From positions 1 through 24,638 of IMG/VR virus record IMGVR_UViG_3300021425_002180: a stretch of 24,638 bases of DNA. The stretch is one strand, 5' to 3'. The notes beneath the pieces are model-generated. The model saw only the letters and a list, made by a program, of their open reading frames with translations, was not told where the DNA came from and did no database searches. Positions 1,847 through 24,638 of this stretch are shown piece after piece. Made by a program: the position numbers and the translations under genes. Each line of letters begins with the position of its first letter. Positions within the stretch are counted from its first letter, which is position 1. The DNA comes from a virus.

Positions 1847-2833
1847 ATGGCATCATTAGCAGAAATCCGAGCAAAGCTCAAAGAACAAGAAGCAAGCTCT
1901 TCCGGCAACCGCAGTTCAGGCGGTGGCGATAACAGCATTTACCCATTTTGGAATATTAAAGAAGGCGATAGCGCAGTGCTACGTTTTCTTCCTGATGGCA
2001 ACGCTGATAACACGTTCTTCTGGCAAGAACGACTTGTTATTAAACTCCCATTTGCAGGCGTAAAAGGTCAAACTGACTCACGTCCTGTACAAGTACAAAT
2101 TCCGTGTATGGAAATGTACGGTGAGACTTGTAACATCCTTAATGAAGTAAGAGGATGGTTTAAAGACGCAAGTCTTGAAGATATGGGTCGTAAATATTGG
2201 AAGAAACGTTCTTATATTTTCCAAGGCTTTGTAGTGGATAATCCACTAGCAGAGGACACAACACCAGAGAATCCAATTCGTAGGTTTATTATTGGTCCTC
2301 AAATCTTCCAGATCATTAAGCAGGCGCTTATGGATCCAGATATGGAAGAACTGCCAACAGATTATACTGCTGGTGTAGACTTCCGTCTTAACAAAACTTC
2401 AAAAGGCGGATACGCAGACTATTCAACATCTAACTGGGCTCGTAGAGATCGTCCACTAGGTGATGCAGAAATGAATGCGGTTAATACACACGGCTTATTT
2501 AATCTTAATGACTTCCTACCTAAAAAGCCAGGTGAAGTAGAACTTAAAGTGATGCAAGAAATGTTTGAGGCGTCAGTAGACGGTGAAGCATTTGATATGG
2601 ATCGCTGGGGTCAATACTTCCGTCCAGCAGGTATGAGTCAGGCAACTGGTGATCCAAATAAACCAAAGGCACCGGCAGCATCAACTCCGGCACCAGCGGC
2701 AACACCAGCGGCTGAGACTGCACCAGCACCACAACCAGAAGCAACTCCAGCACCAGCGGCTGAAGCGGCTCCTGCAGGTGACGGTAATGCTCAAGACATT
2801 CTAGCAATGATTAGAGCACGTCAAGGACAATAA
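1847..2833 (+). CDS. 32: gp32 single-stranded DNA-binding protein
   Basis: A 328-aa homologue of T4 gp32, which coats single-stranded DNA during replication, recombination and repair and organises the replisome. Support: a gp32-like start (MASLAEIRAKLK), the core segment IPCMEMYGETC, the stretch DMGRKYWKKRSYIFQGFVV, and GPQIFQIIKQALMDP, all typical of marine T4-like gp32. The zinc site looks incomplete: Cys87 and Cys95 are present, but the C-x2-C end of the T4 site is replaced by C-N-I-L. The C-terminus (about residues 270-312) is an Ala/Pro/Thr low-complexity linker ending in QDILAMIRARQGQ instead of a long acidic tail. It has an excellent ribosome site and its own promoter. UvsX and UvsY lie downstream, which fits the recombination-replication role. 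Confidence 0.93.
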   Translation: MASLAEIRAKLKEQEASSSGNRSSGGGDNSIYPFWNIKEGDSAVLRFLPDGNADNTFFWQERLVIKLPFAGVKGQTDSRPVQVQIPCMEMYGETCNILNEVRGWFKDASLEDMGRKYWKKRSYIFQGFVVDNPLAEDTTPENPIRRFIIGPQIFQIIKQALMDPDMEELPTDYTAGVDFRLNKTSKGGYADYSTSNWARRDRPLGDAEMNAVNTHGLFNLNDFLPKKPGEVELKVMQEMFEASVDGEAFDMDRWGQYFRPAGMSQATGDPNKPKAPAASTPAPAATPAAETAPAPQPEATPAPAAEAAPAGDGNAQDILAMIRARQGQ

Positions 2834-2840
2834 AACCAAT

Positions 2841-2924
2841 ATGTCTTTACTAGCAAAATCGAGAACAGAGATTCACGGTTTACCTGTCAACGTTCCAAAC
2901 GCTAGTAAAGACTTTGCTTTTTAG
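2841..2924 (+). CDS. Possible 27-aa small ORF between gp32 and uvsX
   Basis: ATG 2841 to TAG 2922-2924 encodes a short peptide beginning MSLLAKSRTEIHG and ending NASKDFAF. It nearly fills the 104-base gap between gp32 and uvsX, where coding density would otherwise drop. The only purine-rich site (AAGGA, 2823-2827) is 13 bases upstream, so initiation would be poor unless coupled to gp32 translation. Its two ends fall in the arms of a 12-bp inverted repeat, so the sequence may be an RNA structure and not a gene. I do not recognise the peptide. Confidence 0.35.
   Translation: MSLLAKSRTEIHGLPVNVPNASKDFAF
2843..2912. repeat. 12-bp perfect inverted repeat in the gp32-uvsX gap
   Basis: GTCTTTACTAGC (2843-2854) is the exact reverse complement of GCTAGTAAAGAC (2901-2912), with a 46-base loop. 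The loop can form a smaller internal pairing (ACAG with CTGT). TTTGCTTTTT follows the right arm. This could be a transcript-processing or attenuating hairpin setting the gp32:UvsX ratio. The loop is too long for a standard terminator. Confidence 0.6.
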
Positions 2925-2937
2925 ATAGGAGAAACAT

Positions 2938-4020
2938 ATGGCGAATAAAGCATTCGACCCAACGAAGTTTAGAACTTCACTAACTAAATCTATTACAGGT
3001 ATGAGTAGTGGATTCAATGATCCAACAGATTGGATTAGCACAGGTAACTATGCACTCAACTATCTTATTTCCGGAGACTTTAACAAAGGTGTTCCAATGG
3101 GTAAGGTAACAGTATTTGCAGGAGAATCTGGTGCAGGTAAATCATATATCTGTGCAGGTAACATTGTAAAATACGCACAAGATCAAGGCATCTTCGTAGT
3201 TCTAATTGACTCAGAGAATGCACTTGATGAGTCTTGGCTACACGCACTAGATGTAGATACAAGCGAAGAAAAACTACTTAAACTTAATATGTCAATGATT
3301 GATGACGTTGCTAAAACTATTAGTGTGTTTATGACAGACTATAAAGCAATGCCAGAAGAGGATCGTCCTAAGGTACTGTTTGTTATTGATAGTTTAGGTA
3401 TGTTGCTAACACCTACTGATGTTGATCAGTTTAACAAAGGTGATATGAAAGGTGATATGGGTCGTAAGCCTAAGGCATTGACTTCACTTGTTCGTAACAC
3501 AGTTAATATGATCGGCTCACATAACGTAGGCTTAGTATGTACTAACCACACTTATGCATCACAAGATATGTTTGATCCGGATGATAAGATTAGTGGTGGA
3601 CAAGGCTTTATCTATGCATCAAGTATTGTTGTTGCAATGAAGAAACTAAAACTTAAAGAAGATGAAGACGGCAACAAAATTAGCGAAGTGCGTGGTATTC
3701 GTGCAGGTTGTAAAGTAATGAAGACTCGTTACGCAAAACCTTTTGAAGGCGTACAAGTTAAGATTCCTTACGAAACAGGAATGAATCCATACAGTGGACT
3801 AGTAGAACTTTTTGAAGCAAAAGGTGTAATCGAAAAGAGCGGTAACCGCTTGAAGTATGTTACAAGCGAAGGCGAAGAACTATTAGACTATCGTAAAAAA
3901 TGGACTGGAGAGTTACTTGACACAGTTATGTCAGATTACTTAATTAAGGAAGCTTCTATGGTAAATACCGCTGATGACACTTCCGAAGAAGAAGTCGAAC
4001 CTGAATTAACTGAGGAGTAA
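2938..4020 (+). CDS. uvsX: UvsX RecA-like recombinase
   Basis: A 360-aa homologue of T4 UvsX, the strand-exchange protein for recombination-dependent replication and repair. The Walker A motif is GESGAGKS (residues 62-69), and the Walker B strand KVLFVIDSLGML ends near Asp151. A RecA-type L2-like region follows (HNVGLVCTNHTY, then KISGGQGFIYASSIVV). The C-terminus is acidic (DTSEEEVEPELTEE), as is usual in RecA/UvsX proteins. AGGAG (2927-2931) lies six bases before ATG 2938. The next gene begins four bases after the stop, so uvsX, the small gene at 4024 and uvsY are probably co-translated. Confidence 0.95.
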   Translation: MANKAFDPTKFRTSLTKSITGMSSGFNDPTDWISTGNYALNYLISGDFNKGVPMGKVTVFAGESGAGKSYICAGNIVKYAQDQGIFVVLIDSENALDESWLHALDVDTSEEKLLKLNMSMIDDVAKTISVFMTDYKAMPEEDRPKVLFVIDSLGMLLTPTDVDQFNKGDMKGDMGRKPKALTSLVRNTVNMIGSHNVGLVCTNHTYASQDMFDPDDKISGGQGFIYASSIVVAMKKLKLKEDEDGNKISEVRGIRAGCKVMKTRYAKPFEGVQVKIPYETGMNPYSGLVELFEAKGVIEKSGNRLKYVTSEGEELLDYRKKWTGELLDTVMSDYLIKEASMVNTADDTSEEEVEPELTEE

Positions 4021-10618: not shown

Positions 10619-11457
10619 TTTGAATTCCAATAAGCTTCACTTCTGTTAACCATTAGATCTTTATCTAAACTTTTTCCTGTGTCTTTGCGTCCGCCTTTCA
10701 TATGGTCCATCCACTTGCCTAATGGTCCATTAATTAACGGATGGCCGCCGCCGCCTGACTTTGCTTCTTTGAGATACATTTCTGCACTATAGTCGTGTGA
10801 TGGAAATTCACTGTACTTCTTTAACAGTTCACCGAACACATAACTGTCGTGCCATTCTTCTAACTTAAAGATGCCGTTCTCTGCATCTTCGTACATACGT
10901 TCAAAGTCTTCTAAGAAACTATGACACACAGGGTGATTTAGATTCATACCGTAGAAGCCACACTCTGGCCAAGTCTGCGATCCTTTACCTCTACCAACAT
11001 ATGTAATATAAGCATTTTCAGGAAGTAGCTCTTTGAACTCTTCGTAACTCCAAGGACTGTGAATAAAGCTATCTGCATCCATCCACACACACCATCCTTT
11101 AGAGCGTGTACAAGCGTCATACACAGCGTATGTTTTATTAGCAAAACGTATAGCATTCCATTTGAATTCTTTATGCCAATCTCTAGGACGTCTTGCTTTT
11201 ATATCATCTGGAGGAATTCCATTTGCTTTAGGATCATTCTTCCATTTTTCTTTAAATGCATTTAGTTTAGGCAATGTCTTTTCTGCACTTAATATTTCTA
11301 TTCTTCTTGTATCTGGATTAGGAGGTAGTATGCCTTCTGCATACACTAATAATTTAATTCTAGGATCTACTTGTTTTGCGAAACTTTCTAAAAATCTTTG
11401 TCCGTATTTTGTGTATCCGTCTGGATGAAATGTTGTAACCACAGTTATAGCTGGCAT
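10615..11457 (-). CDS. GT-A-like glycosyltransferase, minus strand
   Basis: A 280-aa protein starting ITVVTTFHPDGYTKYGQRFLESF, a usual opening of GT-A glycosyltransferases. WCVWMDADSFI carries the D-x-D motif, and WPECGFYGMNLNHP with EEWHDSYVFGELL resembles the acceptor-side region. The glycine-rich KSGGGGHPLINGP and basic KGGRKD near the C-terminus are distinctive. GAGG (11468-11465, minus strand) lies seven bases before ATG 11457, so unlike several plus-strand unit heads it has a normal ribosome site. It heads a two-gene minus-strand unit with the methyltransferase. Donor and acceptor are unknown. Confidence 0.65.
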   Translation of the reverse strand: MPAITVVTTFHPDGYTKYGQRFLESFAKQVDPRIKLLVYAEGILPPNPDTRRIEILSAEKTLPKLNAFKEKWKNDPKANGIPPDDIKARRPRDWHKEFKWNAIRFANKTYAVYDACTRSKGWCVWMDADSFIHSPWSYEEFKELLPENAYITYVGRGKGSQTWPECGFYGMNLNHPVCHSFLEDFERMYEDAENGIFKLEEWHDSYVFGELLKKYSEFPSHDYSAEMYLKEAKSGGGGHPLINGPLGKWMDHMKGGRKDTGKSLDKDLMVNRSEAYWNSK

Positions 11458-11468
11458 TTGTTTTCCTC

Positions 11469-11497
11469 GTTAAATATACTTATATGGAATATTTAAC
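11469..11497. promoter_or_regulatory. Divergent intergenic inverted repeat with a minus-strand late-like box
   Basis: GTTAAATAT (11469-11477) and ATATTTAAC (11489-11497) are perfect 9-bp arms around an 11-base centre, between two divergent genes. On the minus strand the centre reads TATAAGTA (11484-11477), one mismatch from the T4 late box TATAAATA. It would start transcription near 11471 and give a short leader with GAGG. On the plus strand I see no convincing box at the usual distance from ATG 11500. The symmetry suggests a shared operator or overlapping promoters. Confidence 0.4.
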
Positions 11498-11499
11498 CT

Positions 11500-12354
11500 A
11501 TGAAATTCAGTCTTTGGTCGCAATATGGCGCACAAAATAGTAGAGAAGTTTTTAATGCCTTTGCTCACAGTCTTGTGGCTGCTGGGCATACTGTTGTTTG
11601 GAACGATCCTGTTTCTGATGTTGATGTCATTTGGAGTGTTCTTTTCGCTGGTAGAATGGCTCAGAATAAAACTATATGGCAAAGGAACTTGGCAAAATCC
11701 AAACCGACCTTGGTCCTAGAAGTTGGCGGGATCAGCAGAGGCAAAACTTGGAAGGTAGGACTTAATGGAATCAATAGAGACGCTTATTGGGGCGATATTG
11801 ATAATGATGATAGTCGTGTCAGTTTACTGGGACTTGAAGTAAAACCCTGGCGCACAACAGGTGAATACATTCTCATATGTGGACAACACGATAAAAGTCT
11901 GCAATGGAATAATATGCCTAAAATGAGTGTTTGGGTAATGAATACAATTACTGAAATACAAAAACATACTGATAGGCCAATTATCTTTCGTCCTCATCCT
12001 AGATGCACATTACCTAGCATTGAACACGAATTTAAAAACGTTCGTAGACAAACACCTAAGCAAACACCCGGTAGTTATGACGATTTTGATATAGACTACA
12101 GCAATGTATACGCTACTGTAAGCTACAGTAGTAATCCTGGTATACACAGTGTACTAGAAGGTGTTCCAGCGTTTGTAAGCCCTAGCTCGTTAGCGTATGA
12201 CGTTGGTAACGACATAGACTTCTTTCACGACATAGAAGCGCCATTGACTCCAGATAGACAACAATGGCTTAACGACTACGCTTGGACTGAATTTACAGTA
12301 GAAGAAATTTCTCAAGGATTACCACTTAAACGCTTGACTTCTAAGTTGTTTTAA
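11500..12354 (+). CDS. GT-B-like glycan synthesis protein (paralogue of 9157-10089)
   Basis: A 284-aa protein with YILICGQHDKS, VMNTITEIQKHTDRPIIFR, PHPRC, ATVSYSSNPGIHSVLEGVPAF and PDRQQWLNDYAWTEF. These are parallel in order and spacing to the 9157 protein, and more weakly to the second half of the 7467 protein. The N-terminus (MKFSLWSQYGAQNSREVFNA) opens like a Rossmann domain. The paralogues are now separated by the minus-strand pair 10079-11457. There is no Shine-Dalgarno sequence before ATG 11500. Its last codons contain the -35 box of the next promoter. It is probably a glycosyltransferase of the surface-glycan set; the reaction is unknown. Confidence 0.6.
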   Translation: MKFSLWSQYGAQNSREVFNAFAHSLVAAGHTVVWNDPVSDVDVIWSVLFAGRMAQNKTIWQRNLAKSKPTLVLEVGGISRGKTWKVGLNGINRDAYWGDIDNDDSRVSLLGLEVKPWRTTGEYILICGQHDKSLQWNNMPKMSVWVMNTITEIQKHTDRPIIFRPHPRCTLPSIEHEFKNVRRQTPKQTPGSYDDFDIDYSNVYATVSYSSNPGIHSVLEGVPAFVSPSSLAYDVGNDIDFFHDIEAPLTPDRQQWLNDYAWTEFTVEEISQGLPLKRLTSKLF

Positions 12355-12362
12355 GTTATACT
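12334..12362 (+). promoter_or_regulatory. Sigma70-type promoter of the UvsW-Kds operon (predicted leaderless)
   Basis: TTGACT (12334-12339), a 17-base spacer and TATACT (12357-12362). Six bases then separate the -10 box from ATG 12369, so the expected start is the A of that ATG. No Shine-Dalgarno sequence precedes it. The -35 box lies inside the coding end of the 11500 gene. The surrounding CGCTTGAC is also found at the 24355 promoter. A tight run of genes to 21293 probably depends on it. Confidence 0.7.
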
Positions 12363-12368
12363 GTATGT

Positions 12369-13604
12369 ATGTTTACAGTAGAAGATTACATAGAAATTTT
12401 AGCCGGCATCCAATCCGGAGGCTCTGCAATCAAATTAGAACGTGCTGACTACAACCTTGTTACTAGTTTAGCAAGGCAAACGTTTAAAGGTGTTGCATAT
12501 ACAGATCGTCAGTTTGAACTTGCTAAAAAGAAAGTACAACACTATGAAGGTCAACTTATTGCCCAAGGCTTTAAGATTGAAGATGATGACTATAACAATC
12601 TTAGATTGCCGCTGCGAGAAATAGATCGTAGTCGTTGGATTAAAATTGTAGATGATATTGACAATGCAACAGAACATAAATCTTCAAAAGCACCTTTTAT
12701 TGCAGTTAGGTTTAGCTTCCAAAAGAAGTTAATCAGTGCATTAGAAAAAATAAGACTAACATCTTATCACTATGATAAAAAATTAAAAATACAATATTTT
12801 GAATATAGCGAACAAAATTTATTTAAAATTCTAAGTGCATTTGATGGAAAAAACTTTGAAATTGATCCTGCCGTTCAAACAATTTATGATAAAATTTTAA
12901 CATTTACTAGGGAAAATAGTTTACCTGGTGTTTATGGTTATAAATTAAAAAACTTGCCAGACTCTGCTATTAATATGCTTGAAGAAGAATTAGGTAAACC
13001 TAATGCTGATAATTTACTGTTATATCAAGACAGAAGTTTAAAATATGGTTTACATATTGATAGTGATTATAATGTAGATACAAATTCTTTAGAATGGAAA
13101 ATTGCCAAACGGAAAAATCCTAACGTTAGTCTTGATAGTGCGAATGTAAGTTTAGGTGATCTATTAATTACTTTAGAAAATTTGCAAAGAAATAGAACAC
13201 TTATTCTTTTATCGAGTCAGAACGATTCGCATTACGATAATATTGTAGAAGCTCACTCAATTATTAGAAATCTATTCAAGCCTGAAGAAGTTGCTGTAAC
13301 ATTTAGATTAGATAACAAAGACGAAGGTATTGAATTTAACAATTATATTAAAAAGCAATGTATTAATAATATGGTTGACAATAATACTAAAATCGTATAT
13401 AATACAAGTAATAAAATGCCCAAGCCACTATTAAAGTCGACTTGGACGCCTGATACGATTCTTGTATTAGGCGCTAGTGGATTTATAGGTCAAAGAAAAG
13501 TATTAGATTGTTATCCTAGTGCTGATCTTATTATACACTGTGTAGAAGGTAATTCTTCACAGGGTTATCGATCATACTTGGGGAGAGGAATAGACAAACT
13601 TTAA
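12369..13604 (+). CDS. Protein of unknown function heading the uvsW operon
   Basis: A 411-aa protein I do not recognise with confidence. The N-terminal 70 residues include RADYNLVTSLARQTFKGVAY then TDRQFELAKKKVQHYEGQL, a pattern seen at the start of several phage replication-associated proteins. The middle is Asn/Lys/Tyr-rich. The C-terminal part alternates strands and helices (NRTLILLSSQ, NKMPKPLLKSTWTPDTILVL, ADLIIHCVEG) and looks like a RecA-like or degenerate helicase C-domain, but no Walker A, DEAD box or arginine finger is visible. Its TAA overlaps the ATG of uvsW (TAATG), so translation is coupled. It may be a UvsW partner; this is inference from position. Confidence 0.7.
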   Translation: MFTVEDYIEILAGIQSGGSAIKLERADYNLVTSLARQTFKGVAYTDRQFELAKKKVQHYEGQLIAQGFKIEDDDYNNLRLPLREIDRSRWIKIVDDIDNATEHKSSKAPFIAVRFSFQKKLISALEKIRLTSYHYDKKLKIQYFEYSEQNLFKILSAFDGKNFEIDPAVQTIYDKILTFTRENSLPGVYGYKLKNLPDSAINMLEEELGKPNADNLLLYQDRSLKYGLHIDSDYNVDTNSLEWKIAKRKNPNVSLDSANVSLGDLLITLENLQRNRTLILLSSQNDSHYDNIVEAHSIIRNLFKPEEVAVTFRLDNKDEGIEFNNYIKKQCINNMVDNNTKIVYNTSNKMPKPLLKSTWTPDTILVLGASGFIGQRKVLDCYPSADLIIHCVEGNSSQGYRSYLGRGIDKL

Positions 13605-16486: not shown

Positions 16487-17137
16487 ATGTTTACAAAACT
16501 ATTAGACGGTGTAGACAAGACTCTAGTTAGAAATCTTGTAATTTTACACACACTAGTAATTGCAGTAAGTAATTATTTGGTTACAATTAGATTTGATTTA
16601 TTCCCAGGGGCAGACTTGCCTTTGTTTGGATCATTTCCTTTAGCGGCAGCAGCGTTTACGTTTCCAATCGTTGTTGTAGCAACTGACCTAACAGTGCGTA
16701 TGGTTGGTAAAGAAGCAGGTCGTGCAGTAGTAGCAATGGCTATTATTCCTGCTATCATTGCTTCAGTGCTTGTATTACTAGCACTAGGTGATGAACACGC
16801 ATATAGAGTTGGTTTTGCATCAGGTATTGCGTATGCTATCGGTACAATGCTTGATGTGTATGTATTCCAACATATTAGAGAGAAATGGAGTGAAGCGTGG
16901 TGGGCAGCCCCAGCAATTTCAACGATTGCGGCAAACATCATTGACACATATTCATTCTTTTATGTGGCATTTGCAGGTTCTACAGATGCAGAAGGTAACT
17001 TAACTTGGATTGGTGAAAACTGGCACGTTGTTGCACAGAATAATACATTGACTAAGATTGTAGTTGGCTTAATTGTATTCCTACCTGCATACGGAGTCCT
17101 ATTAGGATACCTAAAGAAAAAATTAGGTAAAATATAA
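16487..17137 (+). CDS. YhhQ/VUT-family transporter, likely queuosine precursor importer
   Basis: A 216-aa inner-membrane protein with about six hydrophobic segments. VVVATDLTVRMVGKEAGRAVV (split around residues 61-81) and the stretch GTMLDVYVFQHIRE with WWAAPAISTIAANIIDTYSFF are the signature regions of the Vut_1/YhhQ family. YhhQ imports 7-deazaguanine precursors (preQ0/preQ1) used for queuosine in tRNA and, in some phages, for DNA modification. The charged D-L-T-V-R-x-x-G-K motif and the acidic D in the second half are kept. Start ATG 16487 with AAGGAAAG about ten bases upstream; its stop overlaps the next ATG (TAATG). No queuosine biosynthesis or transglycosylase gene is in the window. Confidence 0.85.
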   Translation: MFTKLLDGVDKTLVRNLVILHTLVIAVSNYLVTIRFDLFPGADLPLFGSFPLAAAAFTFPIVVVATDLTVRMVGKEAGRAVVAMAIIPAIIASVLVLLALGDEHAYRVGFASGIAYAIGTMLDVYVFQHIREKWSEAWWAAPAISTIAANIIDTYSFFYVAFAGSTDAEGNLTWIGENWHVVAQNNTLTKIVVGLIVFLPAYGVLLGYLKKKLGKI

Positions 17138-17394: not shown

Positions 17395-17720
17395 AATATG
17401 AAGATTGGGACATTGGGGGAGAAGTTGTTAAAGAAGACGAAAGATATATCGTAAAAGATAACACATTATTAAACAATTTAGTAGTAAGCAGTACAATGTT
17501 ATCAGCTAATAAGAGTACAACAGGACATCGACACGCCGGACAAGAAGAAGTTTATATTTTTGTTAGCGGCAGTGGACAAATGGAACTTGATCATAAAATA
17601 ATTGATGTAACAGCAGGCGATACAGTACTAATAGAAGACGGAGTGTTTCACAAAGTACACAACACAACTGACTTTGGATTAAAATTTATTTGTGTATTTG
17701 ACGGAGGGAGAAACCATTGA
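17391..17720 (+). CDS. Single-domain cupin (cupin_2 type)
   Basis: A 109-aa cupin. Motif 1 is GHRHAGQEEVYIFVSGSG, with His46, His48 and Glu52/Glu53; motif 2 is GDTVLIEDGVFHKVHN, with His87. All four usual metal ligands are present, so it should be active. AGGAAG just before ATG 17391 and the ATGA overlap give coupled translation. It directly precedes kdsA, whose TTG start overlaps its stop, so it may act on a sugar phosphate in the same pathway (isomerase or epimerase); this is inference. It differs from the cupin at 16127 and is not an obvious recent duplicate. Confidence 0.82.
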   Translation: MKYEDWDIGGEVVKEDERYIVKDNTLLNNLVVSSTMLSANKSTTGHRHAGQEEVYIFVSGSGQMELDHKIIDVTAGDTVLIEDGVFHKVHNTTDFGLKFICVFDGGRNH

Positions 17721-18484
17721 GAATTATAGCAGGACCGTGTCAGCACGAGTCATTAGAAAAAAGTTTAGAAATTGCACGTGAATGTAAACGTGTATGCGAC
17801 AAATATGGCATCGATTATTATTTTAAAGCAAGTTTTGACAAAGCAAATCGTACAAGTGTAAACGGCAAGCGTGGCGTAGGATTACACTCATTTGTAAAAG
17901 ATATCCTAGAACTAAAAGAACAACTAGGTGTAAAAACACTTACAGACGTACACGAAGTAGATCAAATACAATATCTAACTTACGTAGTCGATGTATTACA
18001 GATTCCTGCATTCTTATGCAGACAAACAGATTTAATACAAGCAGCTTGTGCAACAGACTGCATTGTAAATATTAAAAAAGGACAGTTCTTAGCACCGTGG
18101 GATATGACAGGAGTGCTAAGTAAGTGTAAAGATGCAAAAGAAGTTTGGATAACAGAACGAGGAACTAGCTTTGGTTACAACACTCTTGTCGTTGACTATA
18201 CTGGTCTTATGTATATGCTCGACAATTATGAACATCCTATTGTTTTTGATTGTACACACTCTGCCCAAAAACCCGGCGGACAAGGTACTAGTTCAGGTGG
18301 TAATAGGGATTACGTGCCTGGGTTGGCTCGTAGTGGGTCTGCTCTTGGGATCCGGAACTTTTTCTTGGAAGTCCATCCTGACCCTGATGTAGCACCAAGT
18401 GATGGTCCAAATATGCTACGCTTAGAAAATTTTGAGGAGGTAGTACGTGATATCATCAGCTATTCTTATACCCGCAAGGTATAA
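17717..18484 (+). CDS. kdsA: KdsA, 3-deoxy-D-manno-octulosonate 8-phosphate synthase (metal-dependent class)
   Basis: A 255-aa enzyme that condenses arabinose 5-phosphate with phosphoenolpyruvate to make Kdo-8-phosphate, the precursor of the inner-core LPS sugar. Family motifs run in order: IAGPC, FKASFDKANR, TDVHE, IPAFLCRQTDL, NIKKGQFLAPWDM, TERGTSFGYNTLVVD, DCTHSAQKPGG, and HPDPDVAPSDGPN. Cys8, His181, Glu218 and Asp229 match in type and spacing the metal ligands of the metal-dependent enzymes (Aquifex Cys11, His185, Glu222, Asp233). The start is TTG 17717 with GGAGGG upstream, overlapping the previous stop. The 3' end overlaps kdsB by 38 bases. It lacks the N-terminal extension of cellular forms but otherwise looks complete. 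Confidence 0.93.
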   Translation: MRIIAGPCQHESLEKSLEIARECKRVCDKYGIDYYFKASFDKANRTSVNGKRGVGLHSFVKDILELKEQLGVKTLTDVHEVDQIQYLTYVVDVLQIPAFLCRQTDLIQAACATDCIVNIKKGQFLAPWDMTGVLSKCKDAKEVWITERGTSFGYNTLVVDYTGLMYMLDNYEHPIVFDCTHSAQKPGGQGTSSGGNRDYVPGLARSGSALGIRNFFLEVHPDPDVAPSDGPNMLRLENFEEVVRDIISYSYTRKV

Positions 18485-19130
18485 CAGCACACGCTTTCCA
18501 GGTAAACCTTTGGCACTGTTAGATGGTGTGCCAATGATTAAACGAGTGTATGATGCTTGTATAGCATCTAATCTACCAACATATGTGCTTACTGATAATC
18601 AAGACATATACAATGTAATTGGTACAAATTGTCTATTAGATCATCGCGATTACAAAAACGGAACTGAAAGATGTGCAGGCGCTGTTGCTAAGTTTGATAT
18701 ATTAGATCAATACAAAAACTTTATAAACGTACAAGGCGATATGCCTGATGTAACATTGCAAATGATAGAACGATGTATTGAATGGTTACAGTATTATCCT
18801 ATTAGTACAGTGTTTACAGAAATGCCTAAAGAAATGCAAGACAATCCTGACTCAGTTAAAATGGTTAGAGCGGGTGATCAGGCTCTATGGTTTGGTAGAG
18901 GTATGACTGGGTATGGCGAATGGCACTTAGGTATATACGGCTATAAAAGAAATGCATTAGAATTATACAATGGTTTAGAAATTACTATTGAAGAACAAAC
19001 GGAAAAATTAGAACAACTAAGATGGTTAAAAAGTGGTTGGAATTTGGGCTGTTCGAGTGTATACTTTAAAGGTACTGAGATAAATTCACCAGAGGATGTA
19101 GAAGAATGGCACAGCAAGCGTTTCCAGTAA
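18447..19130 (+). CDS. kdsB: KdsB, CMP-Kdo synthetase
   Basis: A 227-aa enzyme that activates Kdo with CTP to CMP-Kdo, the donor for LPS inner-core transferases. Signatures: ILIPARYNSTRFPGKPLA at the N-terminus, NVQGDMP around residues 94-100 (usually N-V-Q-G-D-E-P), GIYGYKRNALELY, and EKLEQLRWL. Near the C-terminus the usual D-T/S-P-E-D-L reads NSPEDV, so one commonly acidic position is Asn. The start GTG 18447 is fixed by GAGGAGG (18434-18440) inside kdsA, giving a 38-base overlap. KdsC/KdsD homologues are absent here, so the host would supply arabinose 5-phosphate and the phosphatase. Confidence 0.9.
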   Translation: MISSAILIPARYNSTRFPGKPLALLDGVPMIKRVYDACIASNLPTYVLTDNQDIYNVIGTNCLLDHRDYKNGTERCAGAVAKFDILDQYKNFINVQGDMPDVTLQMIERCIEWLQYYPISTVFTEMPKEMQDNPDSVKMVRAGDQALWFGRGMTGYGEWHLGIYGYKRNALELYNGLEITIEEQTEKLEQLRWLKSGWNLGCSSVYFKGTEINSPEDVEEWHSKRFQ

Positions 19131-21298: not shown

Positions 21299-21645
21299 TG
21301 TACGTTTTTACGTTTTACTCTTTTAACTGAAAGATTATTAATATTAGTGCAAGGTCCGATTGTAACCTTGACATCTTTTGAATTCATAGTAACTAAACTA
21401 TATTTGAAATATTCCATTTCTTTCATTAGAAATATATTAATGGGGATTAACCGATTAGACTCCCACCACCAAACTTCTCCTAAATCAAGAAACGCTTTCT
21501 TTTCCTCTGTTGATTTTAAATTAGTGTACACATACATTGATGTAACCCATTGATCCTGATTCGCGATGATGCCGACATACTCTTGGCCGCCGTAAACTAC
21601 AACGCTGATAAAGGGGAAATTTTCTTCTATATCTTTTGTTAACAT
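21274..21645 (-). CDS. Conserved phage protein of unknown function, minus strand
   Basis: A 123-aa protein beginning MLTKDIEENFPFISVVVYGG, with GGQEYVGIIANQDQWVTSMY, LGEVWWWESNRLIPINIFL, VTMNSKDVKVTIGPCTNIN, and a very basic C-terminus (KRVKRKNVQLVKKSKR). The fold looks beta-rich in the first half, perhaps Sm-like; this is a guess. I recall similar proteins in marine T4-like phages without a function. The basic tail suggests RNA or DNA binding. ATG 21645 diverges from the plus-strand gene at 21666 with only 20 bases between start codons. It has no clear ribosome site; CTAAATAT on its strand (from 21690) is a possible late-like box. Confidence 0.75.
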   Translation of the reverse strand: MLTKDIEENFPFISVVVYGGQEYVGIIANQDQWVTSMYVYTNLKSTEEKKAFLDLGEVWWWESNRLIPINIFLMKEMEYFKYSLVTMNSKDVKVTIGPCTNINNLSVKRVKRKNVQLVKKSKR

Positions 21646-21654
21646 TCTTATCCG

Positions 21655-21661
21655 ATAAATA
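21655..21661 (+). promoter_or_regulatory. T4-late-like promoter box ATAAATA for the 21666 gene
   Basis: ATAAATA (21655-21661), then four bases, then ATG 21666. Transcription by T4 late geometry would start within one base of the start codon. No Shine-Dalgarno sequence is present. It matches the elements at 181-187 and 6681-6687 and lies in the 20-base gap between divergent genes. Confidence 0.6.
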
Positions 21662-21665
21662 CAAT

Positions 21666-22442
21666 ATGCAACTTATACCCAGATATTTAGTCAAAAACAA
21701 AACTACGGTTATTGCTAATGAAGCAGGGTTTCTTACGGAGTATAGAGCAGTGTACACACGACAACTAAAAGTATTTACAGGTATTGATAACGTACTGGAC
21801 TTTAAACTGGTTAATGCAGATCAAAAACCTATTGATCTAGCAGGATACTCCAGTATTAAATTTCAAGCGTTTGATGAAAACAAAAATTTAATTATAGAAC
21901 ACGATGGTGTAAATGTTAATCAATCAAAAGGATTGTTTAAAGTTACAATCGGTGAAAATGATCTATTAAATGTCAAGAGTCAGTATTTAAGTTATAGTAT
22001 CTATCTTGTAGATGCTAACAGTAATAATGTAATTACATATACCGATGCACACTTTGGAGGTTGTGGTACAATATATATAGACACTTGTCAATATCCTGGT
22101 CCTAGAGATACTTATAGTGTATCTACATTTACTGAAGTAACAGAAGACACCCCGTATTGGACATCTGAAACACTAGATGCAGAACCGGGTATTAACGGCA
22201 ACGAAGCATTACACACTGCTGTATATTATACAGATAATTACATAGGCGATATTATAGTACAGGCAACGCTCGATAATGACGTAATTGACGGCACAACTTG
22301 GGCTGATGTAACATCGCTAACACTCAATGGTGCAGAAACAGAGCCAGTAGTTGTAAACTTTAATGGAGTGTTTAGTCATTTAAGATTTAAAGCCACAGCA
22401 AATCCTGCAAATAAAATAAGTAAAATATTAGTCAGAAACTAG
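21666..22442 (+). CDS. Predicted virion/baseplate protein with a BppU-like N-terminal domain
   Basis: A 258-aa, beta-rich protein from ATG 21666; an upstream TTG at 21636 would start before the promoter box. Residues about 40-120 (VFTGIDNVLDFKLVNADQKP, LAGYSSIKFQAFDENKN, KGLFKVTIGENDLL, SYSIYLVDANSNN) resemble the N-terminal domain of baseplate upper proteins, in which a polymer-style 'D-L-x-G-y-x-x-x-F' pattern repeats. The C-terminal part (residues 190-258) looks like a beta-sandwich, with VVNFNGVFSHLRFKATANP near the end. The late-type promoter box fits a structural role. The exact virion position is unknown. Confidence 0.6.
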   Translation: MQLIPRYLVKNKTTVIANEAGFLTEYRAVYTRQLKVFTGIDNVLDFKLVNADQKPIDLAGYSSIKFQAFDENKNLIIEHDGVNVNQSKGLFKVTIGENDLLNVKSQYLSYSIYLVDANSNNVITYTDAHFGGCGTIYIDTCQYPGPRDTYSVSTFTEVTEDTPYWTSETLDAEPGINGNEALHTAVYYTDNYIGDIIVQATLDNDVIDGTTWADVTSLTLNGAETEPVVVNFNGVFSHLRFKATANPANKISKILVRN

Positions 22443-22471
22443 TTGACAACGCAACAATATTACTATATAAT
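22443..22471 (+). promoter_or_regulatory. Perfect-consensus sigma70 promoter of the receptor gene (predicted leaderless, dyad)
   Basis: TTGACA (22443-22448), 17 bases, TATAAT (22466-22471), then six bases and ATG 22478. The -35 box abuts the stop codon of the previous gene. The expected start is the A of the ATG, and no Shine-Dalgarno sequence exists. ATATTACTAT (22457-22466) and ATAGTAATAT (22470-22479) are perfect 10-bp inverted arms that cover the -10 box and reach into the start codon, a likely operator or structural switch. Confidence 0.85.
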
Positions 22472-22477
22472 AGTAAT

Positions 22478-24220
22478 ATGAAAAATAAAATAATACTGAC
22501 TATAGTCGTAACTTTTGTTGCGGCTTTTTTTACGACTACTATAAAATCTGAACCGTTAGAAGTTTGGATTTATGCAGAAAGAACACCATCTTATCTAGCA
22601 CCGGTTACTTATTCATACGAGATTGTAGAATCTGAAGATATTAAAGATGTAGCAAATTTAGATATTGTAACTAGCGGTCCAAAAGGACAAGTAAGCTCAT
22701 TATATATTAGAGGTGCTGACAGTGATCAAAATTTAATAACACTCAACGGCATACCTATCAAAGATCATTCTAGTCCAACAGGAACAGATGATATTGGACA
22801 GCATAATTTTACAGGAATAAGTTCTGTAGAAATTATAAAAGGTCCTATGAGCAGTGTATACGGGGCAAATGCTTCTGGAGGTGTTATAAACTTAATATCA
22901 GATGTATCATATAATTCTTATGCTACATTAAGTGTAGGTTCAAATAATTCAAGTACAAAGAAAGTACAAGTGTCTGATATCAGCAACAGGCTTGCATATA
23001 CTATAAGTGCAGAGCAGCAATCAACAGATGGCATAAGTGTATATCCTGGAGGCAGTGAAACTGATCCATATGACAGTACAAACTATAATTTAAATTTTAT
23101 GTACTACGGTGATATTGCAAACTATAGATTGAATTTTATTAACGAATTAAATAATTCTAATCTAGACGGAATGACTGATACAGAAGACTATACTGGTAAA
23201 TGGCATTGGACTAACTTGCAATTTGATGCGAACACAAATAATAGTAGGTTTGCTTTTAATAATTCTAATCACAATAGAACATACACAAAAGACGGATTGC
23301 TTGAAGGAAATTACAAAAGTAATACTAATACTTTTCTTGCTTCGCATATATTAAATTTTAACAAAGCTGATGTTACAATAGGAGCAGAACACGAAAATGT
23401 TGATGCAAACTTCTTAACTAATATTAGAGGAGCGTTTCCGTATACTAGCAGTGTTGATAAAACTAGAAACACAAATGGAATTTTCGTTAATACAAATATA
23501 CTAACTGAAGATAATTTTATAATATCAACAGGTCTAAGATATGATAGCATAGACGAGTTTGGTAATAAAGTTACCGGTAGATACGGCTTGCATAAAAACG
23601 GTTATAGAGGAAGTGTATCTCTCGGTTACCGTATACCTACATTATATGAGATGTATGGTCAAGACAACTATGGATTCAATGGTAATCCAAATCTTAAAGA
23701 AGAAGACACTATAGGATTAGAACTAGGTTACAATAATGATATATTTGATACAGCAGTATTTGTAACCCAAGAATCTAATGCAATTATATATGACGGAACA
23801 TACGTTAACGACGCAGATAAATCTTACACTAAAGGTATAGAAACATCAATTAACCATAGTATAGATGATTATTTTATTACAGGCAATGTTGCATTTACTG
23901 ATGCACGTAAGTCAAACGGCGAACAGAAACTACGCCGCCCTAAACTTACAAGCAATGTAAAAGTAGCTAGAATTATAAACGGCATAGAATACAGCACAAA
24001 GGCAAACTATTACGGCAAACACAAAGATATTGACAGCAAAACATTTGCTACAATTGACAAAAGTTCAGTTATAACTTATGATGCTGAATTAAAGCATTTA
24101 AAAGATAATGTAGAAATATTTGCTGGCATATATAATATAAGTAATAAGGAATACGAAAGACCCGACGGTTACAGTCAATTAGGACGTAATTGGAAAGCAG
24201 GGTTCAAAGTATACTTTTAA
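22478..24220 (+). CDS. TonB-dependent outer-membrane receptor (BtuB-like), phage-encoded
   Basis: A 580-aa protein, near the size of E. coli BtuB (614 aa). Residues 1-24 are a signal peptide (lysines, a hydrophobic core IILTIVVTFVAAFF, then TTTIKS). EPLEVWIYA (25-33) resembles a TonB box. The plug spans about 40-142: SSLYIRGADSDQNLITLNG, SSVEIIKGPMSSVYG and ANASGGVINLI are classic. About 12 residues around the usual L-x-x-x-P-G-V element appear missing. The rest is a 22-strand-type barrel rich in Asn, Asp and Tyr, ending NWKAGFKVYF with the terminal Phe needed for outer-membrane insertion. The ligand is unknown; BtuB-like proteins take up cobalamin, others siderophores. It could also alter phage adsorption. 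Its leaderless perfect promoter and AT-rich codons match the phage. Confidence 0.88.
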   Translation: MKNKIILTIVVTFVAAFFTTTIKSEPLEVWIYAERTPSYLAPVTYSYEIVESEDIKDVANLDIVTSGPKGQVSSLYIRGADSDQNLITLNGIPIKDHSSPTGTDDIGQHNFTGISSVEIIKGPMSSVYGANASGGVINLISDVSYNSYATLSVGSNNSSTKKVQVSDISNRLAYTISAEQQSTDGISVYPGGSETDPYDSTNYNLNFMYYGDIANYRLNFINELNNSNLDGMTDTEDYTGKWHWTNLQFDANTNNSRFAFNNSNHNRTYTKDGLLEGNYKSNTNTFLASHILNFNKADVTIGAEHENVDANFLTNIRGAFPYTSSVDKTRNTNGIFVNTNILTEDNFIISTGLRYDSIDEFGNKVTGRYGLHKNGYRGSVSLGYRIPTLYEMYGQDNYGFNGNPNLKEEDTIGLELGYNNDIFDTAVFVTQESNAIIYDGTYVNDADKSYTKGIETSINHSIDDYFITGNVAFTDARKSNGEQKLRRPKLTSNVKVARIINGIEYSTKANYYGKHKDIDSKTFATIDKSSVITYDAELKHLKDNVEIFAGIYNISNKEYERPDGYSQLGRNWKAGFKVYF

Positions 24221-24221
24221 T

Positions 24222-24347
24222 ATGAAACACTTAATAAAACATCCAATGTTTTGGCCCGGACTACTAGTAGCATCTCCTGTTCTTTACTATATCATATATA
24301 GATTAGGTTTAGAACTTTGGTGCATAGCATACGGATTAATCTACTAA
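24222..24347 (+). CDS. 41-aa membrane protein co-transcribed with the receptor
   Basis: ATG 24222, one base after the receptor stop, to TAA 24345-24347. The peptide starts MKHLIKHPMFWPGLLVASPV and continues with YYIIYRLGLELWCIAYGLIY. It has a positive N-terminus, then one long or two short hydrophobic segments, so it is predicted to be an inner-membrane protein. No Shine-Dalgarno sequence is visible; translation probably follows from the receptor by re-initiation. Function unknown. Small phage membrane proteins often block superinfection or alter the host envelope, but nothing here shows that. A new promoter starts eight bases after its stop. Confidence 0.65.
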   Translation: MKHLIKHPMFWPGLLVASPVLYYIIYRLGLELWCIAYGLIY

Positions 24348-24354
24348 AAAACGC

Positions 24355-24383
24355 TTGACATTACACTTATATGATTGTATAAT
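24355..24383 (+). promoter_or_regulatory. Perfect-consensus sigma70 promoter of the primase gene (predicted leaderless, dyad)
   Basis: TTGACA (24355-24360), 17 bases, TATAAT (24378-24383), six bases, then ATG 24390. The expected start is the A of the ATG; there is no Shine-Dalgarno sequence. TATGATT (24370-24376 plus strand) and AATCATA (24381-24387) form 7-bp inverted arms around GTAT, again centred on the -10 box. CGCTTGAC is shared with the promoter at 12334. Confidence 0.85.
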
Positions 24384-24389
24384 CATAAT

Positions 24390-24638
24390 ATGAGTGTAGT
24401 AAACGATATAGTTCTGACATACTTGCCGGCCAAGCGTAAGCAAACGCCAAGTGGCTGGCTATCATTTAATGCTCCGTGTTGCCATCATAATGGTCACAGT
24501 GCAGACACTCGCGGCCGCGGTGGCTTAATAAGCAACCCGGATGGAGGCGTTAGTTATCACTGTTTTAACTGCGGCTTCAAGGCATCCTGGCAACCGGGCA
24601 GAAACTTCTCTCATAAGTTGCGTAAACTACTCCAGTGG
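24390..24638 (+). CDS. 61: gp61 DNA primase, N-terminal fragment
   Basis: The first 83 codons of a gene that runs off the right end. gp61 makes RNA primers and works with the gp41 helicase. The zinc-binding domain is clear: APCCHHNGHSADTRGRGG (Cys30, Cys31, His33/His36 region), then YHCFNCGF (Cys58, Cys61). The segment SGWLSFNAPC before it and WQPGRNFSHKLRKLL after it match marine T4-like gp61 as I recall it. The catalytic TOPRIM-like part is outside the window. GC content seems slightly higher here than in the receptor before it. Starts at ATG 24390 behind a leaderless-type promoter. Confidence 0.88.
   Translation, partial: MSVVNDIVLTYLPAKRKQTPSGWLSFNAPCCHHNGHSADTRGRGGLISNPDGGVSYHCFNCGFKASWQPGRNFSHKLRKLLQW

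Follow-up and report, generated by a model that had tools for sequence, protein, structure and literature searches.

The receptor gene and its neighbours

The 24,638-nucleotide viral contig analysed here (the window) carries at 22478..24220, on the plus strand, an open reading frame of 580 codons that is intact, has no internal stop and encodes a TonB-dependent receptor of the BtuB type, assigned from the reading of the frame, Pfam, TIGR01779, PDB comparison, an AlphaFold2 model and Foldseek. The perfect promoter announced in the original prediction is indeed there: an exact sequence match to the sigma-70 consensus, TTGACA-17-TATAAT, stands at 22443..22471 on the same strand, and as its TATAAT ends 6 nt 5' of the ATG, the receptor mRNA is probably leaderless. 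Three exact copies of this promoter occur in the window, and seven sites with one mismatch or fewer, against 0.59 expected; nearly all displayed members of the window's own clade keep the layout of promoter and ATG, with small changes in the hexamers.

The receptor had been placed between a phage structural gene and primase, and the PHROG matches agree with it. A virion structural-like protein (21636..22442, plus strand; PHROG 14467, 1e-9) is the upstream neighbour and forms the fixed left border of the slot; the right border is the N-terminus of a DNA primase (24390..24638, plus strand; PHROG 47, 5e-8), which has its own promoter at 24355-24383 and runs off the contig. Directly 3' of the receptor comes a conserved micro-ORF of 41 aa with a single transmembrane segment (MKHLIKHPMFWPGLL...YRLGLELWCIAYGLIY; 24222..24347, plus strand). 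The span 22443-24347, ascribed originally to the receptor as a whole, has to be divided, the receptor stop being at 24220 and position 24347 being the stop of this micro-ORF, which had been left unnamed.

The protein starts with a signal-peptide-like segment (residues 1-24, 22478..22549, plus strand), recognised by sequence inspection and alignment and closed in the receptor's relatives by an AxA-type site. The TonB-box-like LEVWIYAER follows directly (residues 26-35, PLEVWIYAER, 22553..22582, plus strand) and aligns with DTLVVTANR of E. coli BtuB. The plug domain (residues 57-136, 22646..22885, plus strand) matches Pfam PF07715 with E=1.2e-14, and the 22-stranded beta-barrel (residues 148-579, 22919..24214, plus strand), delimited by DSSP on the AlphaFold2 model, matches TonB_dep_Rec_b-barrel PF00593 with E=9e-23. 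The two Pfam scores exceed the gathering score. Signal peptide, TonB box and terminal Phe had been listed together: the C-terminal residue is Phe and the positions of the other two look right, while the box is divergent in sequence when set against the BtuB consensus and is variable within the family. For this reason the idea that a kept TonB box favours transport, correct as to position, carries little weight.

Among NCBIfam models TIGR01779 (BtuB) ranks first for the window receptor, with E=3.7e-39. Its 134.8 bits do not reach the curated cut-off of 599.7 bits, which E. coli BtuB exceeds with 903 bits; riboswitch-controlled Bacteroidia receptors score 181-265 bits and miss it too, so that the cut-off is narrow. 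In a phmmer search of the PDB E. coli BtuB was ranked first as well, over residues 55-573 of the receptor (E=1.9e-17). The structure prediction proposed as a check was built on 25 family sequences and gave a model with mean pLDDT 80.4 and pTM 0.82, in which DSSP finds the plug and 22 barrel strands; the best 12 Foldseek matches in the PDB were E. coli BtuB in all 12 cases, with TM 0.79-0.80 for the best of them. A BtuB fold is thus predicted, in agreement with the domain and family matches and with the claim of a 580-aa BtuB-like receptor with a plug.

Farther upstream, a Vut_1/YhhQ-type queuosine precursor transporter is encoded at 16487-17137 (TIGR00697, 95 bits, above the cut-off). It is present in nine other records of the window's clade too, in many of them 5 kb from the receptor, and record L013 has a uroporphyrinogen decarboxylase (HemE) nearby in its place. 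KdsA- and KdsB-like genes of KDO synthesis, recognised by eye at 17717-18484 and 18447-19130, lie near several glycosyltransferase-like genes and may form with them a set for LPS modification. The window has no tRNA genes.

Phage context and selection

UvsX, UvsW and SSB genes are also found in the window. For UvsX and UvsW the nearest sequences, at ~52-66% identity, are those of jumbo phages: Phosso and Atu_ph07, with Vibrio 2.275.O for UvsX and PA5oct for UvsW; at this distance the matches do not point to a particular host. The Gp23 capsid gene of T4 type is situated not on the 24.6-kb window but on a syntenic 115-kb relative (G013); the attribution to a T4-like phage is right at the superfamily level.

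Separate contigs show the same succession of structural gene, receptor, 41-aa ORF and primase. The search for homologues led to relatives in phage contigs, among them 16 IMG/VR contigs in which the surroundings of the receptor have the same gene order and the receptor identity is 56-100%, and more distant ones on contigs as long as 328 kb, Gp23 being present on several of these. Misassembly or host contamination, in which a bacterial receptor gene would have been joined to phage DNA, was named at the outset as a possibility, and such contamination is real: in the GenBank phage set the sequences that match the receptor resemble bacterial contigs. Against it stand the 16-fold synteny and the large contigs with Gp23, by which we rule out a chimeric or contaminated contig, and the scan of 84,980 cellular genomes, which used two short motifs only, could miss diverged cellular relatives, and returned a single full-length one; the probability left to an artefact is practically nil. 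The single cellular sequence lies on an 8.5-kb contig of a Flavobacteriaceae MAG (L020; NAT163, contig C54), which looks like phage DNA binned with its host. In 50,697 records of isolated phages neither the receptor nor its partner DUF6580 was found, bacterial-looking contigs apart.

Phylogeny, suggested as a check for host-like origin, puts all 51 phage receptors into one clade with support of 0.996, its phage-only status being limited by the sampling of cells, mostly Bacteroidia with E. coli and one Desulfocicer. The dN/dS of the receptor is 0.055-0.17 in eight pairs, and the protein is therefore under purifying selection. According to our analysis, several T4-type phage lineages, many of them large, encode receptors of the vitamin-B12 type.

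Membrane partners and B12 riboswitches

DUF6580 (PF20221) occurs in 21 records of the receptor family and adjoins the receptor in every one of them, in most with an overlap. It lies 3' of the receptor in the groups L015-L018 and L025-L029/L042, and 5' of it in the groups L020, L036-L041 and L045-L049. Its model (pLDDT 79) looks like an ECF S-component, an inner-membrane transport protein, the five best PDB matches in Foldseek being such components with weak E values of 0.13 or higher. Among Bacteroidia, DUF6580 is present in 78 of 119 genomes, and of 20 regions read 5 show a B12 context, with a riboswitch next to genes recognised by eye as BtuB, BtuF-like or Cob-type; as the others do not, DUF6580 alone is not proof of a B12 role. 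Our literature search, in which subscription papers and preprints were few, found no paper naming this family. On a 171-kb phage contig (L255, 3685-5776) it is adjoined by genes that look by eye like TctA and TctC transporter genes.

Some of the cassettes in relatives have a B12-sensing RNA in front of them. AdoCbl-II (B12) riboswitches were detected in 14 phage records, directly 5' of DUF6580 and/or the receptor: L046, a phage contig of 115 kb, has a full-length one (78 bits) immediately 5' of the receptor, and 13 of 37 further phage records from a second round of scanning, seeded with DUF6580 and L046-type receptors, have others of 58-93 bits, each directly 5' of one or both genes. In three of these 13 the stretch read contains DUF6580 but no recognised receptor. 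Four of the AdoCbl-II-bearing contigs have Gp23, and one Gp23 contig of 242,646 bases shows the order riboswitch-DUF6580-receptor. Near the L046 cassette (10729-12699) there are genes for a PstS-like phosphate-binding protein and for a protein that by eye resembles a porin. In the receptor tree the riboswitch-bearing members bracket the window's clade; no riboswitch was found in the window, even at E<=1, or in the members of its clade that were scanned.

A closely similar known arrangement is chromosomal. In Bacteroidia a BtuB-DUF6580 pair stands under a cobalamin riboswitch (RF00174), together with CobU/T/S/C-like or BtuF-like genes, and in 149 Bacteroidia genomes sampled the best cellular matches of the phage profile, among them receptors of such operons, have a cobalamin riboswitch directly upstream in 10 of 11 cases. 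The two systems share a pair of membrane partners and B12 riboswitch control; they differ in that the cellular operons reside on chromosomes, use the standard Cobalamin RNA instead of AdoCbl-II and in some cases include periplasmic or corrinoid-salvage genes, whereas the phages have the membrane parts only.

The window's own lineage is built in another way. No DUF6580 is present in its clade or in the L030/L044 clade; the 41-aa ORF follows the receptor in all contigs of the window's clade whose DNA covers the place, and a 36-aa homologue in the L030/L044 clade stands directly upstream with a 17-bp overlap with the receptor start. The micro-ORF has no Pfam or PHROG match, by which we reject its identity with a known family; it forms a separate small one. 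This family occurs also on phage contigs without a window-type receptor; four of them have, or to judge by an identical micro-ORF probably have, another protein with a plug domain, of 508 aa. The micro-ORF motif KLGLELWC(I/L)AY overlaps this unrelated 508-aa protein in L174 (3222-3338/3308-4834) and L177 (5077-6689), and is seen with no receptor in view in L167, L169 and L185.

In five related phages (L284, L285, L291, L292 and L297), whose structural gene is 51-57% identical to the window's, the pre-primase slot holds a predicted outer-membrane protein of ~120 aa and DUF6580. The small protein, seen in these records and L293 near 2362-3447, has a signal peptide and a terminal Trp, overlaps DUF6580 and is probably an outer-membrane barrel. 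With such a pair in related phages the place between structural gene and primase looks like an exchangeable uptake cassette. It seems quite likely to us that diverse T4-type phages carry a corrinoid-uptake cassette of this exchangeable kind, composed of a receptor or ~120-aa barrel and an S-component or 36-41-aa membrane protein, in some cases under its own B12 riboswitch, and that the window would be one exchange variant.

Probable corrinoid uptake and its alternatives

Since its clade has neither DUF6580 nor a riboswitch, we infer the ligand of the window's lineage from homology and from aligned calcium-site residues, and a corrinoid appears most likely because the slot looks exchangeable and riboswitch-bearing members bracket the clade. 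The calcium-site aspartates of BtuB, which we take to be D179, D193, D195, D230 and D241, were compared by sequence alignment across 51 phage receptors. D195 and D230 are kept in all 51 and D241 in 50; the D193 column has Asp or Glu throughout, Glu in most, and the D179 column is Ser in all phage receptors, as it is in 6 of 13 cellular riboswitch-linked ones. The D195 column, E or S in four outgroups, separates B12-linked receptors from these outgroups, and D230 and D241 do so less cleanly. Compared with E. coli BtuB (TIGR01779, PDB 1nqg/2gsk), the phage receptor shares plug, 22-strand barrel and, in the alignment, the place of the TonB-box-like segment, and the alignment shows three of the five calcium-site aspartates with one further Asp-to-Glu; it differs in an identity of ~20-25%, Ser for Asp179, the divergent TonB box and its coding by phages in a clade of their own.

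From these data we consider it likely that the window gene serves the phage as an auxiliary gene for nutrient uptake and codes for a corrinoid (B12) receptor of the BtuB type. The energisation, direction and benefit of transport we infer as follows. Host RNA polymerase would transcribe the receptor gene from its own sigma-70 promoter during infection, and the product would be exported and inserted into the host outer membrane as a BtuB-type TonB-dependent transporter, would bind cobalamin or a related corrinoid outside the cell and, powered by the TonB-ExbBD of the host, would import it into the periplasm. No TonB gene (TonB_C domain) was found in 21 phage records, and host TonB would therefore be needed. 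DUF6580, in the same operon of many sister lineages, may act next at the inner membrane, and in some lineages the AdoCbl-II riboswitch would switch off the operon at high B12. The window's lineage has no riboswitch, and its partner position is taken by the 41-aa membrane protein; here the inner-membrane step may fall to the host or to this small protein.

The benefit would be the lifting of B12 limitation in the infected cell, possibly by way of methionine synthase and QueG, and in some lineages B12 may perhaps also feed phage-encoded B12-binding radical-SAM enzymes. Of 47 records, 9 encode such proteins (E<=0.001); in L020, L036, L045 and L046 radical-SAM proteins lie close to the receptor, and for several of them the B12-binding score is weak. 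We rejected a B12-dependent ribonucleotide reductase as the explanation of the uptake, since the three RNR loci detected are NrdA with NrdB, class I.

The receptor may also be a true TonB-dependent transporter whose ligand in the window's clade is another one (heme, a siderophore, a queuosine precursor or another cofactor), corrinoids being imported only in the lineages with DUF6580 or a riboswitch. The lack of both in this clade speaks for it, as do the queuosine precursor transporter 5 kb away in many members and HemE in one of them; however, Vut_1 is absent from several members and is not adjacent to the receptor. The heme family model TIGR01785 also matches, with 72.9 bits against its cut-off of 316.9, more weakly than TIGR01779, and BtuB is the best match both by sequence and by fold. 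Heme receptors have a conserved His between the FRAP and NPNL motifs, and no such His is present between the FRAP-like and NPNL motifs (YRIPTLYEMYGQDNYGFNGNPNL) of the window receptor or its aligned relatives. As the calcium-site columns are, moreover, equally conserved in the window's clade and in the riboswitch-linked members, we find a different ligand unlikely, if worth keeping in mind.

BtuB-type receptors are classical receptors of phages and colicins, and the protein could accordingly be imagined as a decoy or a means of superinfection exclusion without transport, which captures or blocks rival phages, colicin-like toxins or the host receptor; the sugar-modification genes also present in the window region would fit to it. 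But such a function has no need for an S-component partner, a B12 riboswitch, a conserved calcium site or a plug, all of which the family keeps, and we consider it quite improbable. A defence role was rejected on the lack of any match to known defence families in PADLOC. The original prediction had offered import of cobalamin or iron, masking of host receptors and sequestration side by side: transport, with cobalamin as the ligand, is best supported, by the B12 riboswitches of the relatives and the ECF-S-like partner, and nothing found favours iron or heme import, masking or sequestration.

Corrinoid uptake remaining the preferred reading, our analysis suggests that these phages make the infected cell take up vitamin B12. 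Relatively few groups of marine prokaryotes make cobalamin, and much of the ocean is poor in B vitamins (PMC13079714). A virus that installs a B12 receptor, in some cases with a B12-sensing RNA, would alter by infection what the cell takes from its surroundings, and, if this is true, a vitamin-uptake system with its own sensor would have evolved inside viruses; DUF6580 would acquire a testable role in corrinoid transport.

The remark that no described system of this kind was known has to be corrected, as the megaphage Mar_Mega_1 has a TonB-dependent receptor of the SusC type, proposed to raise carbohydrate uptake (PMC9723777). Both are TonB-dependent receptors encoded by marine phages; the Mar_Mega_1 receptor is of another type, and neither a partner nor a riboswitch has been reported for it. 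A SusC of an uncultured marine phage (805 aa, 13% identical to the window receptor) was the sole other TonB-dependent receptor among our Foldseek matches in a viral structure library. In phage Skadi, a gene annotated as a TonB-dependent receptor stands between those for tail and capsid and has been interpreted as a hint to the receptor of this phage (PMC10504331). Viral cobS and cobT are well known (PMC8940887, PMC9301287), and the viral B12 genes reported in the literature searched are of this biosynthesis type; in the same literature, with few subscription papers and preprints, we found no report of a phage B12 receptor, B12-uptake system or cassette, or B12 riboswitch.

Pelagimyophages carry the curli pore genes CsgG/CsgF (PMC7029224), for which cofactor import has been suggested (PMC9599517). 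These are likewise phage-encoded outer-membrane pores with a suggested role in cofactor import, and differ in being unrelated proteins and passive pores with no ligand evidence. The glutamine riboswitch of phage Melnitz (PMC9004378) shares with our systems the regulation of marine phage genes by a ligand-sensing RNA; its ligand is another one, while AdoCbl-II matches the presumed substrate of the transporter that it controls. In our own records, L042 (7440-7962; also L025-L029) has 5' of the receptor a glutamine riboswitch, an ORF of ~50 aa and a manA-RNA-like element (RF01745; in L042 47.5 bits, below the cut-off of 55.2) with its own promoter-like and terminator-like sequences, and a freshwater-2 RNA (RF02980) is located just 3' of the receptor-DUF6580 pair in L028 (10248-10322) and L029 (10219-10298).
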